DNA from: Candidatus Nitrosopumilus sp.
GTDB taxonomy: Archaea; Thermoproteota; Nitrososphaeria; Nitrososphaerales; Nitrosopumilaceae
DNA length: 42,401 bases
Assembly: GCA_029864805.1 (NCBI GenBank)
Contig: JAOTSS010000011.1
Span: forward strand, 1-42,401
Reading direction: 5' to 3'
Of the stretch, positions 8,918 to 42,401 are shown piece by piece (positions within the stretch are counted from its first letter, which is position 1; each line of letters opens with the position of its first letter). The translations under genes were made by a program, and so were the position numbers. The notes under the pieces were generated by a model that was given only the letters and a program-made list of their open reading frames with translations, was not told the origin of the DNA and made no database searches.

Positions 8918-9091
8918 TGTATACATATTTCATTATTTTCTAAAGTTACATTAGTAATTTTTTAAAATATTTTCACAGTATTGTTATGAAATAATCCTTT
9001 ATCTTTTTTAAAACTTTGAATTATGAATAATTTGTGTTTTTTTAAATATGACTTTTGATTATCTTTATTTACTTTATGACTGATTTACAGT

Positions 9092-9343
9092 ATGCAAGCA
9101 TACATTCTGATAAATTGCAATACTGGTAGTGAAACCACACTAATTTCTGAATTAAAGGAATTACCTGAAATAATTGAAATTAATGGTGTATGGGGAAAAT
9201 ATGATGTTTTTATTAAAATTTCAACGCCTGATCCTAATGGAGTTGAACAGATTATCAAAAGATTACGAAACCACCCCGATGTTGTAGACACCTATACCAT
9301 GCACGTATTATATGGTCAAGGCGGAACAATCGATAATGAATGA
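9092..9343 (+). CDS. Stand-alone Lrp/AsnC-type effector-binding (RAM) domain protein
   Basis: The 83 residues match the C-terminal half of Lrp/AsnC regulators: MQAYILINC opening strand, the central WGKYDVFIKI, then VDTYTMHVL. There is no helix-turn-helix. Such single-domain proteins bind amino acids and can pair with full-length Lrp proteins (family knowledge). Lying some 500 bp upstream of the trp promoter, it might sense an amino acid, but a link to Trp is only a guess. The next frame starts inside its last codons. Confidence 0.85.
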   Translation: MQAYILINCNTGSETTLISELKELPEIIEINGVWGKYDVFIKISTPDPNGVEQIIKRLRNHPDVVDTYTMHVLYGQGGTIDNE

Positions 9344-14608: not shown

Positions 14609-15274
14609 ATGTCTAATTTTTCACAAATGTTAAAGATCCGAGAACCTGAACTGTTAGATCGTGAAGATGGACATTGGTATAAAACAAAATTTGATAAAAT
14701 CTATCCTTCGATTAGTACTATTCTCTCAGCAACATCTTCTGATGAAAAACAAAATAGTTTAAAATCTTGGAGAGAAAATGAACCTGCACATCAATACATT
14801 ACGGTACAGGCCCAGGAAATTGGAACACAATCGCATAAGATTATCGAGAATTACTTGAGTAATAGTTTATCTTTAAATGAATTTGATTTACTTCCCATAG
14901 CTCATTTTAATAATTTAAAACCCTATTTAGAAAATATTTCTGATGTTACCTCTATTGAACAAAGAATGTATTCTGATAATCTAAAGGTTGCAGGTACCAG
15001 TGATTTGATTGCAGAGTATAATGGAGAATTATCCATAATTGATTACAAGACAAAAAGAAAACCCCAGGTGGATGAATACATGTATGAGTATTATTTACAA
15101 ACTACGTGTTATGCTCAAATGTTTCAAGAAGTAACTGGAAAAAAGATCAATCAAATAGTGATTTTAGTCAGTAGTGAAAAAAACACTCGTCAGGAATTCA
15201 TAAAGTCATGTAATGACTATTTTGAGCCTCTTCATGAGCGAATAGAAAAATACTACCTGAATGATCTTAACTGA
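14609..15274 (+). CDS. PD-(D/E)XK exonuclease, MGME1/RecB-like
   Basis: The 221-aa protein shows the layout of MGME1-type and phage RecB-like exonucleases: YPSISTIL near residue 31, a GTQSHKIIENYL helix, then the catalytic core VAGTSDLIAEYNGELSIIDYKTK (Asp in GTSD, Asp and Lys in IDYKT), and a later YYLQTTCYAQMF helix with the family's Gln/Tyr. No helicase or Cys cluster is attached, so it is not Cas4-like. Probable role: single-strand DNA end processing in repair, or a captured viral gene (inference). Confidence 0.82.
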   Translation: MSNFSQMLKIREPELLDREDGHWYKTKFDKIYPSISTILSATSSDEKQNSLKSWRENEPAHQYITVQAQEIGTQSHKIIENYLSNSLSLNEFDLLPIAHFNNLKPYLENISDVTSIEQRMYSDNLKVAGTSDLIAEYNGELSIIDYKTKRKPQVDEYMYEYYLQTTCYAQMFQEVTGKKINQIVILVSSEKNTRQEFIKSCNDYFEPLHERIEKYYLNDLN

Positions 15275-23390: not shown

Positions 23391-23466
23391 TATGTAATGA
23401 TCAGATGAGATCTTTTTAAAAATTTAATAAATTTGAAAATTGTAATTATAAAAAGTTCAAACGCCT

Positions 23467-23845
23467 ATGGATAACAACAATAATCAGAACAAATCAACGG
23501 TTATACAGAAAAATAGGTACAAATCCAGAACAAATAGATGAATTCTCAGAAATAACCCTTGAAAAAATACCAGAAAAAAGGCGATATAGAGGCCAGAGGG
23601 GACCTGACAAGAAACCAAGAACCTACAAAGCAAACAGCATGAACAATTTGGCACAGTTTAACCAAAGACCTGATGAGTTTGCACAATATCTCAAAGAAGT
23701 AAAAGGGGTTGACATTACTGGAAACTCTGGCATTGCAAAGACATTCTTGATTTTTAGCGGAGTAATAATTGCAATCTTTGGAGGATTGTGGTTGCACAAC
23801 CGTTACAAAAATGGAAGAAATGATGGCATCGAAAACAAATACTGA
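23467..23845 (+). CDS. Small membrane protein, apparent 5' frameshift
   Basis: The clear part starts at ATG 23639 (MNNLAQFNQRPDEFAQYLK) and ends with one membrane helix, TFLIFSGVIIAIFGGLWL, and a basic tail NRYKNGRNDGIENKY. The same frame stays open upstream with coding-like sequence (RLYRKIGTNPEQIDEFSE) but has no start. An ATG at 23467 (MDNNNNQN) is one base out of frame, suggesting a single +1 shift near 23487 and an original protein of about 125 aa. Its 3' third is repeated inverted at 33.2 kb. Confidence 0.6.
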
Positions 23846-23899
23846 TGTTAGAAGAACAGTTTGAATGCACTGCTTTTCTAATATTTTTTATCAATTCGG
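23772..23899. repeat. Left copy of a 128-bp inverted repeat pair
   Basis: These 128 bp match the reverse complement of 33126-33253 with 10 mismatches and no gaps (about 92%, counted by eye). It covers the tail of the small membrane protein, its stop and about 55 bp of 3' flank. Similarity resumes after an insertion (CCGAAACT...TCTGATCG) to about 23957. Confidence 0.85.
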
Positions 23900-23984
23900 C
23901 GAGATAAATTATCAATTCGGTAGAATGTTCCGAAACTTTCCGAAAGTCTGATCGATGATATCTATCAATTCGGTATCAATTCGG
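23889..23984 (+). repeat. Four direct copies of an 11-bp motif TATCAATTCGG
   Basis: Exact copies begin at 23889, 23910, 23963 and 23974, the last two in tandem. Between them lies TTCCGAAACTTTCCGAAAGT, containing the palindrome ACTTTC-C-GAAAGT. The right-hand inverted copy at 33.1 kb has only one motif. They could be binding sites, or expansion at a mobile-element end. Beyond them, 23985-24536 holds no gene I can support. Confidence 0.8.
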
Positions 23985-24536
23985 AGATTTTATCGAAACT
24001 GTCAAAAAATCATTTGATTAGAAATCTACATTAGAAATTTATCGGATTAGACATCTAATTTTCCTGATTGCGTTCAATATTATCTAAAATGAACAAAAAA
24101 TACAAAGACGCAAGTTTTTCAAAATAGATTTCTGCTGTACTGCATTTTATTATGTTCCATTATGACTATAGTAGACGCAGTTTATTGAAATAACTAACTA
24201 ACATTAGGACAATTTAGGTAATGGAACTAAGAGGATTCAGTACTGGGGGCGGGTTTTGTTAAATTAGTTTGATACCCTCATATTGATGTTCTGTATCTAA
24301 TTGTATTGATCCTATTGTAGAATTAGAATCAGTATAGGAATTAATTAAGAGATTCCAATTATCATATAATTAAAATCATTTATTGAAGCACCTGAAAGTT
24401 TGCTGATAAAGTTGAGTAAACTTTGGAGTGAAAGTCAGGGATTTGAGTTGGTGTATCTGTTTACAAAGATGAACAAGAAAAATCAATGATACGTTAATTC
24501 TTTAAACAAGCTTGTCTTTATGATTATCAATTAGAA

Positions 24537-24776
24537 ATGAATCCGTTACTCATTACAGGCTTTGGAACATCAATCAATGTGGACAAGCGAAAACTGATAA
24601 TCACTAACAAGCTAAAAGATACAAGACTGGAATTTTATCCTCACAAGATTAATCATGACGGAATAATAATTGATGGCCATACTGGAAACATTACATTTGA
24701 GGCAATGAGATGGTTGATGAAACACAACATCAACCTGACATTGTTGAACTGGAATGGCCAGTTGCTTGCCAATTGA
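24537..24776 (+). CDS. cas1: Cas1 N-terminal beta domain (split Cas1, first part)
   Basis: 79 aa matching the Cas1 N-terminal domain: PLLITGFGTSINVDKRKLII, then DGIIIDGHTGNITFEAMRWLMKH and NLTLLNWNGQLL. In Cas1 this domain makes the dimer interface next to the helical catalytic domain. The frame ends in TGA at exactly the domain boundary, and that TGA overlaps the ATG of the next frame (TGATG). Either a natural split with translational coupling or a -1 frameshift. No Cas2, Cas4 or array is nearby. Confidence 0.85.
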   Translation: MNPLLITGFGTSINVDKRKLIITNKLKDTRLEFYPHKINHDGIIIDGHTGNITFEAMRWLMKHNINLTLLNWNGQLLAN

Positions 24777-25768
24777 TGCCAGAGCAGCCAAAATCAGGCA
24801 AATTACGCATTAAACAGTACCAAAAATACCTTGATGATACGAACAGATTTGAGATTGCACTGAAAATCGTACCGTGCAAGGTGGAGCATTCTTTGAATCT
24901 GCTGGAGGAATTATCCAAATTCTATGAATCAGTGGACATTACCAAAATCAGAAAATCTGCAGAAAAAGAAGATTTGTTCTTGTTATCTATAATGAAAAAT
25001 TCAAAGAAAAAAGACATATCAAAATCAATCAAGCAACTCATGACATATGAGGGAAGAATTGCAGGAATCTATCTTGATAATCTAACTACAATATTTCATG
25101 AATTGTATCCAGAGTTTAATTTCACAGGAAGAAAGAACAAGGCAAATTCAAGAAACTATAATGCATCTGACGAGATCAACGCATTGTTGAATTATGGTTA
25201 TGCAATACTAGAATCAGAGATTAGAAAAGGAATTAATTCTGTTGGTCTAGACTACTCCATAGGATTCCTACATGAGATTAATCAGAGTAGAACTCCTCTA
25301 GTCTATGATGTACAGGAGTTGTTTCGATGGCTAATTGATATTTCTGTAATACAATTATTAGAAGAAAAGAAAATCAAAAAATCTGATTTTACTATTACAG
25401 AAAACTATCATATTAGATTGGGAGAAGACATTGCTAAATTGCTCATTGAGGAAATTAATTCAAATTTTAATGCCAAATACAATTACAAGAATGGTAAAAA
25501 TTATTCATATCAAGTTATCTTACAAGATAATTTACAACAGTTATCTAATTTCATTGTAGACAAGAAGAAAGAATTTGATTTTGTCATTCCTAAGATAAAG
25601 TCGAATAGAAATGATAGTGTGGAGTTGAGAGATAAGATTTTGAATATGACTCCAGAAATAAGAAAGAAATTAGGTATCAATAAATCCACATTGTGGTATA
25701 TTAAGAAGAATTTAATCGAGAACAAGAAATCAAAAATTTATGACAAAACTATCACAAGAATTAATTAA
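24776..25768 (+). CDS. cas1: Cas1 catalytic domain (split Cas1, second part)
   Basis: From ATG 24776 (MPEQPKSGKLRIKQYQKYLD) this 330-aa protein is the alpha-helical integrase domain of Cas1. The metal ligands appear intact: Glu in TYEGRIAGIYLD, His in SIGFLHEIN, Asp in LVYDVQELFRW. The C-terminal 50 residues (ILNMTPEIRKKLGINKSTLW) look like a helix-turn-helix extension, seen in some archaeal Cas1 proteins and casposases. Cas1 inserts DNA at specific sites. With no CRISPR array it may be a solo Cas1 or a casposon-like remnant; no family B polymerase is seen. Confidence 0.88.
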   Translation: MPEQPKSGKLRIKQYQKYLDDTNRFEIALKIVPCKVEHSLNLLEELSKFYESVDITKIRKSAEKEDLFLLSIMKNSKKKDISKSIKQLMTYEGRIAGIYLDNLTTIFHELYPEFNFTGRKNKANSRNYNASDEINALLNYGYAILESEIRKGINSVGLDYSIGFLHEINQSRTPLVYDVQELFRWLIDISVIQLLEEKKIKKSDFTITENYHIRLGEDIAKLLIEEINSNFNAKYNYKNGKNYSYQVILQDNLQQLSNFIVDKKKEFDFVIPKIKSNRNDSVELRDKILNMTPEIRKKLGINKSTLWYIKKNLIENKKSKIYDKTITRIN

Positions 25769-33125: not shown

Positions 33126-33253
33126 CCGAATTGATAAAAAATATCAGAAAAGCAGTCCGTTACAACTGCTCTTCTAACATTAGTATTTGTTTTCGATGCC
33201 ATCATTTCTTCCATTTTTGTAACGGTTGTACAACCACAATCCGCCAAAGACTG
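33126..33253. repeat. Right copy of the 128-bp inverted repeat pair
   Basis: Reverse complement of 23772-23899 with 10 mismatches. It includes the last roughly 25 codons of a small membrane protein and its 3' flank. Just outside, TTCGGG-GTTTG-CCCGAA forms a hairpin, and the weaker similarity runs on to about 33085. Confidence 0.85.
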
Positions 33254-33320
33254 TAATCATTGCCACACAAAATGGAAAAGAAATACTTTCATTAACAGAA
33301 GCACATGAACATGAGGTCAT
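33180..33320 (-). CDS. 46-aa membrane protein sharing its C-terminus with the 23.8-kb gene
   Basis: ATG 33320 opens MTSCSCASVNESISF, followed by one membrane helix FCVAMITVFGGLWL and the basic tail NRYKNGRNDGIENKY, identical to the tail of the gene ending at 23845. The N-terminal half is unrelated, making the two genes mosaics. Two early Cys might bind metal or form disulfides. dsbA lies downstream on the same strand. Function unknown. Confidence 0.55.
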   Translation of the reverse strand: MTSCSCASVNESISFPFCVAMITVFGGLWLYNRYKNGRNDGIENKY

Positions 33321-42184: not shown

Positions 42185-42401
42185 TTAACGTCGACGTTTA
42201 ACTGCCTTTCTCTTAGGAGCTGCTTTCTTTGCTGCAGTTCGTCTCTTAGGAGCTGCTTTCTTTGCTGCAGTTCGTCTCTTAGGAGCTGCTTTCTTTGCTG
42301 CAGTTCGTCTCTTAGGAGCTGCTTTCTTTGCTGCAGTTCGTCTCTTAGGAGCTGCTTTCTTTGCTGCAGTTCGTCTCTTAGGAGCTGCTTTCTTTGCTGC
42401 A
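42185..42401 (-). CDS. Histone-H1-like Lys/Ala-rich protein, C-terminal part
   Basis: The visible 71 codons encode six copies of an 11-residue unit KRRTAAKKAAP and end APKRKAVKRRR. Such AAKKAAPK tails bind DNA or RNA backbone and resemble histone-H1-like or ribosome-associated tails known in bacteria and ammonia-oxidising archaea. The N-terminal domain lies beyond the window. Confidence 0.85.
   Translation of the reverse strand, partial: AAKKAAPKRRTAAKKAAPKRRTAAKKAAPKRRTAAKKAAPKRRTAAKKAAPKRRTAAKKAAPKRKAVKRRR
42215..42401 (-). repeat. 33-bp tandem repeat
   Basis: Units beginning AGGAGCTGCTTTC start at 42215, 42248, 42281, 42314, 42347 and 42380 and appear identical, including silent positions. 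The copy number is likely variable between strains. Confidence 0.95.

Follow-up and report, generated by a model that had tools for sequence, protein, structure and literature searches.

Here, we ask whether a divided cas1 gene in a Candidatus Nitrosopumilus contig encodes a natural two-chain Cas1 or is the broken form of a one-chain protein. The gene lies in a stretch of 42,401 nucleotides (contig JAOTSS010000011.1, positions 1 to 42,401), which was analysed as a whole and is referred to as the window. The initial annotation had left three options, i.e. a two-chain Cas1, a casposon relic, or a frameshift giving rise to a start codon by chance. Based on the relatives of the gene, the codons at its junction and its surroundings, we conclude that the locus is very probably the remnant of a family 2 type casposon in an archaeon that is Nitrosopumilus-like judging by the relatives of the locus, in which a one-chain integrase lost its frame at the domain boundary.

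A cas1 gene divided at the domain boundary

The divided gene has the following features:

24537 to 24776, + strand: N-terminal chain of the putative broken casposase, 79 aa; start ATG, stop TGA at 24774-24776
24774 to 24778, + strand: overlapping stop and start, TGATG, read from the window sequence
24776 to 25768, + strand: catalytic chain, 330 aa, with E92, H166, D178, E181 and a C-terminal tail

The Pfam model Cas_Cas1 matches the N-terminal chain at profile positions 1-71 (30.2 bits versus a cut-off of 22.3) and the catalytic chain at positions 75-282 of 283 (E 6.9e-46), and the two frames meet at 24774-24778, in agreement with the earlier description of a Cas1 split at the domain boundary by TGATG. 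The 79-aa chain is 95% identical to the relative P0008. From its in-frame ATG at 24776-24778, the second frame is open as far as 25768; the mechanically called ORF of this chain begins earlier, at the ATG at 24710, and comprises 352 aa, of which the 22 extra residues are not Cas1 sequence. By motif comparison, rather than from a structure of the protein, with the E. coli residues named in PMC4046053, the candidate metal ligands of the second chain are E92, H166, D178 and E181, all of which are invariant in a 12-row alignment. The Glu/His/Asp ligands had been described as intact; all four positions are indeed occupied, but the last of them is Glu rather than Asp.

A lone one-base frame change in a gene that is otherwise clean could also mean that the gene is intact and was wrongly sequenced or assembled. 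However, the 352-aa protein is on record in three contigs, the longest of 97,104 bases, speaking against a mistake confined to a single assembly even though these contigs may share reads, and the neighbouring element genes are damaged too (see below). Accordingly, we consider such an error unlikely.

The window protein as a predicted casposase

Among solved structures, the best relative of the catalytic chain is 6opm (E 7e-48, 167 bits), followed at a distance by the next one (E 4e-21, 79 bits). We take 6opm to be the casposase of Aciduliprofundum boonei; its structure file names it a CRISPR-associated Cas1. The alignment pairs residues 5-329 of the window chain with residues 105-411 of 6opm, C-terminal tail included, in line with the earlier proposal that a C-terminal HTH is intact. 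According to PMC6614799, the A. boonei casposase carries such a C-terminal HTH. In NCBIfam, the window Cas1 reached the general cas1 model and none of the subtype cut-offs. In a phylogenetic tree, the window family forms its own clade (97/99) apart from four Cas1 proteins of the family 1 kind (100/100), one of which has a neighbouring gene taken by eye for EF-2, while the placement of 6opm is unsure (84/72). Judged by these sequence comparisons, the window protein is a predicted casposase, i.e. a Cas1 whose C-terminal tail is of the HTH type, and the tail together with the tree led us to reject assignment to a family 1 casposon.

Relatives are one chain at the junction

A protein search with the catalytic chain, in line with the earlier proposal to look for the same split in relatives, returned 1114 relatives, and the figures given here are from the 120 matches listed. 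Of these 120, 117 cross the junction in one frame, the exceptions being the window's own protein, P0016 and P0106; the latter two, as recorded, start exactly at the Met of the window's second chain. This comes close to what the initial annotation had set out as refuting its two-chain reading, namely single-chain close homologues throughout. The motif at the N-terminal start is present in 105 of the 120 matches listed (of 1114). The other 15 comprise six proteins that start inside the N-terminal domain, eight that start later (P0016, P0058, P0061, P0063, P0072, P0088, P0098 and P0106) and the window's protein; P0088 has a frame change of its own, located several codons before the junction. A search with the N-terminal chain, limited to proteins of 43-138 residues, yielded 41 fragments, many of which are possibly mere cuts by short contigs. 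Not one of these 41 stops where the window's chain does. In seven (P0122-P0127 and P0141), the sequence departs from Cas1 within ~12 residues of the window's end, a count that does not exceed the expectation from an even spread over the admitted lengths.

The junction codons were read in 17 relatives, a reading in which L009 was missed by the pattern and L014 was without a start. In four of the 17, TGATG is already present out of frame, as the codon pair GTG ATG ahead of a conserved Pro. With TGATG native to part of the relatives in this form, a net one-base change beside the codon pair suffices to give a stop and a start without selection, supporting the option of a start codon that arose by chance from a frameshift. 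Apart from the break, the catalytic frame is undamaged; the median dN/dS of 0.078 falls within the 0.058-0.082 of ten intact copies, and the dN of 0.105 is the highest of the eleven copies. This otherwise clean frame argues that the break is either recent or harmless. Breaks elsewhere in the gene are found in other copies (a stop in L008, stops in L002 and an internal gap in L018).

In the scenario that we favor, the ancestral integrase would have been a single chain of about 410 residues, which may have lost its frame recently, as suggested by the clean catalytic frame, through a net change of one base where the two domains meet, and the coupled stop and start would be a by-product of the native codons at the junction. 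The window copy presumably no longer makes a working one-chain enzyme, while intact copies may join element ends to their target in the manner of studied casposases.

A natural two-chain casposase, by contrast, would have ribosomes terminate at the TGA and reinitiate at the ATG that overlaps it, with both chains then assembling into an active enzyme. The location of the break at the domain boundary, the clean and constrained catalytic frame, and the start of P0016 and P0106 at the same Met fit this arrangement. Nevertheless, we regard it as quite unlikely: 117 of the 120 matches listed (of 1114) are one chain at the junction, no N-terminal fragment ends there, the overlap is explicable without selection, and the neighbouring element genes are scraps. 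The supposed two-part Cas1 is thereby removed, and the split gene is probably no natural two-part Cas1. A programmed frameshift that joins both frames into a single fusion protein, a mechanism of some insertion sequences, would suit a family that is multi-copy and patchy; however, the relatives among the matches listed are in one frame and no slippery run is seen by eye at the junction, making it very improbable.

PolB-bearing elements in relatives

In 10 of an initial set of 22 loci (L001, L003, L004, L009, L010, L011, L013, L015, L016 and L018), cas1 adjoins a long ORF that carries the motifs LDxxSxYPT and YxDTDS of polymerase B, followed by HNH-like and HTH-like genes; outside these 22, cas1 likewise adjoins a polymerase B motif ORF in L099. 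Two of the PolB ORFs gave no match in Pfam, NCBIfam or PHROGs, while PF00136 or PF03175 is found on 54 of the 120 matches listed (of 1682) of one PolB ORF. The PolB profile reached solved structures only with a best E of 0.4, the top four being B-family polymerases, and the predicted PolB structure has a mean pLDDT of 47. By profile comparison, with rows L009, L010 and L016 left out of the PolB alignment, the tail of Cas1 matches the tail of PolB at 97.5%, as compared to at most 9.2% for 16 other stretches of the PolB alignment.

Among the remaining genes of the element, the HNH-like gene has one weak profile match (phrog_8048, E 8e-4) and none in Pfam. The gene before cas1 has three forms, with a Pfam HTH in L003 (HxlR, over the cut-off) and not in L001 or L009. 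The 175-aa HTH-like gene has no Pfam match, and both its name and that of the zinc-finger-like gene were given by eye. According to PMC4046053, a Cas1 with an extra C-terminal domain together with a PolB that has a similar C-terminal domain, an HNH endonuclease and two distinct HTH proteins is the gene set of family 2 casposons. The presence of PolB, HNH-like and HTH-like genes beside many copies led us to reject a cas1-only insertion sequence. The term solo Cas1 used in the initial annotation is true of the window, but many relatives lie in PolB-bearing elements and others are without PolB.

Element scraps in the window

Around the split gene, the window holds the following candidate remnants:

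23420 to 23845, + strand: remnant of the element's small membrane-protein gene (sequence homology)
23889 to 23984, + strand: array of four 11-bp sites, spacings 21, 53 and 11
24370 to 24489, + strand: scrap of the gene preceding cas1 in PolB-bearing relatives (weak match, E 0.002)
33126 to 33272, - strand: second stub, holding the end of the element's membrane-protein gene and a single site, 7 kb right of cas1

Homology of the membrane-protein remnant begins at 23528, whereas the first ATG, GTG or TTG of the frame is only at 23639, leaving the remnant start-less. Its orientation is opposite to that in L001, L004, L010, L013 and L018. Because remnant and array are both opposite to L001, L004, L013 and L018, they may belong to another or an inverted element. 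The PolB, HNH and HTH genes of the element set were not found in the window at E ≤ 1e-5. Consistent with the reported lack of Cas2, effector, array and PolB, none of the 38 window ORFs scanned with Pfam, both Cas1 chains included, encodes a Cas2, effector or PolB, and the three tandem-repeat rows of the window include no CRISPR-like array. The window also contains no recognised tRNA or Rfam family.

Taken together with 6opm as the best match and the PolB-bearing elements in relatives, the scraps beside the gene support the option of a casposon relic; this option and that of a start-creating frameshift go together.

Elsewhere in the window, an ORF for a PD-(D/E)XK nuclease is located at 14609-15274 (PF12705, E 3e-9), 9 kb from cas1. 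At the window end (42209-42401), a perfect 33-bp repeat is present in 5.8 copies, which by eye reads as a lysine-rich repeat on the - strand.

Distribution and divergence across Nitrosopumilus genomes

Matches to P0008 at E ≤ 1e-20 are present in 20 of 95 genomes of the genus, of which G011 and G048 have only a distant Cas1; the family proper is therefore present in 18 of 95. The highest count is eight rows in G003, two of which are pieces of one copy, and copy counts can be inflated by mixed strains, as most of these genomes are fragmented assemblies. In genomes with their copies on one contig, there are one (G004), three (G005) and four (G046) rows. Copies within genomes (dS 0.87-1.30, 10 pairs) are as divergent as copies between genomes (dS 0.79-1.55), arguing that they are old or arrived separately; on this basis, a recent burst inside genomes was rejected.

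Among the 11 intact copies with at least 80% identity, six have PolB within 6 kb and five do not (G003:C89, two in G005 and two in G046). Such a PolB was not found in G046 at E ≤ 1e-10. Among the six polymerase rows, one is cut by a contig end and three are listed with stop codons, although L011, which belongs to these three, translates over 931 residues without a stop. With dN/dS values of 0.058-0.082 versus 0.061-0.072 in the others, the PolB-less copies are as constrained as the PolB-bearing copies. The PolB-less copies may have one origin or several (p-AU 0.126 for a single origin, three changes). In viral contigs, 26 stretches matched a pattern and none of them is a relative.

PolB-less loci and a phased site array

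Five PolB-less loci (L005, L006, L007, L094 and L095) share a left region of 323-868 bp with 70-79% identity in 10 of 10 pairs. Likewise, cas1 and some flank are common to 10 of 10 pairs, while the middle is shared in some pairs only and contains a serpin in L007 and L095, and a TBP and a nucleotidyltransferase in L005. The left region carries 11-bp sites, TATC(A/T)NT(T/C)CGG, which also form an array in PolB-bearing copies; shuffled loci have 0.13 sites each. The 57 spacings measured across nine loci and the window follow multiples of 10.5 bp, with a resultant of 0.92 that was reached by none of 5000 random sets, a statistic that overstates independence because the arrays are related to each other.

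In six whole genomes, the paired-site pattern gave 14 matches in five groups, in G004, G005 and G046. With the exception of G046:1743741, these groups (four of five) precede a cas1 copy by 3.5-5.5 kb, all in one orientation. The reversed pattern gave no matches in the six genomes, nor did the pattern itself in G064, which has a more distant family member. However, the array lies at the start of the membrane gene in the other orientation in L010, and downstream of cas1 in L015, while L008 has one site upstream of cas1 and six downstream; sites were not found in L003, L009, L011, L014, L016, L020 and L099, some of which are cut short. These placements and siteless loci disfavor a simple reading of the array as an element end. 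In the PolB-less loci, the array is also located beside a divergent gene for a secreted protein (by eye), and the array may therefore be regulatory.

It is conceivable that the array is a docking array. We tentatively put forward, as a possibility about which we are doubtful, that marine Nitrosopumilus has a second, reduced kind of casposon, in which a PolB-less Cas1 moves cargo (serpin, TBP and surface proteins) guided by the phased array. If so, casposons could do without self-synthesis, and the array would serve to dock either many casposase subunits or a protein of replication or partition.

No terminal inverted or direct repeats were recognised in the loci scanned, and neither a target duplication nor a tRNA insertion site was found. 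For L004, joined flanks representing an empty site were not found in 95 genomes, while for L007 the left flank alone is present in G020 (76%) and the right flank alone in G095 (65%). A palindromic repeat of ~105 bp (CCACGTGGGT ... TATATCCCCAGCACAATGTT ... ACCCACGTGG) occurs outside cas1 in L003, L004, L005, L007, L008, L010 and L018; it is not tied to cas1, and we rejected it as a right end because it is a dispersed repeat.

Comparison to known casposons and CRISPR-Cas1

The family resembles the family 2 casposons, i.e. AciBoo-C1 of Aciduliprofundum boonei and NitNCS1-C1 of Nitrosotalea (the latter described in PMC6563490), in its Cas1 with an extra C-terminal domain, its PolB with a homologous tail (in relatives, not in the window), its candidate HNH-like gene and its compact element. 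Unlike these, some genomes here have several divergent copies, many of them decayed; PolB is missing from the neighbourhood of some of the intact ones; there is an array of phased sites; neither a tRNA insertion site nor a TIR or TSD was found; and the window copy is split and stripped, with no PolB left. Family 1 casposons of the NitAR1-C1 kind share with the present family hosts in the same genus and Cas1 as the integrase; according to PMC4046053, family 1 Cas1 has no extra domain and its PolB is protein-primed. In L097, a Cas1 with an EF-2-like neighbour (by eye) shows 28% identity and groups in a clade other than that of the window family. CRISPR-associated Cas1 has the fold family and ligand motifs in common with the window Cas1; in contrast, the latter has the extra tail, and the ORFs and repeats examined contain no array, Cas2 or effector.

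In the literature, casposons are mostly one per genome and with PolB (PMC4046053), with few tandem or double cases (PMC4046053, PMC6563490, PMC9939771); a lone Cas1 of Nitrosarchaeum is placed in family 1 (PMC12097351), "subterminal" in PMC6614799 is about end residues, and "iteron" in PMC6563490 occurs in the title of a reference. Our literature search, chiefly of open-access papers, did not turn up a family 2 casposon present in several copies in Nitrosopumilus, nor a PolB-less casposon or a phased array. While the split itself is ordinary, the wider family is moderately interesting: it is a family 2 type casposon in a marine genus, with several divergent copies per genome, many of them decayed, and a form without PolB nearby, and it is from casposons that CRISPR adaptation has been proposed to derive. 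If the PolB-less copies move, they are natural variants with which to test what casposition needs.

Two arrangements in individual relatives are also of note. In L011, a perfect 43-bp tandem repeat (9031-9157, three copies) follows directly after cas1 and runs into the contig end. On a contig of 1,672,661 bases, the short ORF P0157 fuses the start of a family Cas1 to a polymerase piece (by eye), which looks as if elements recombine.
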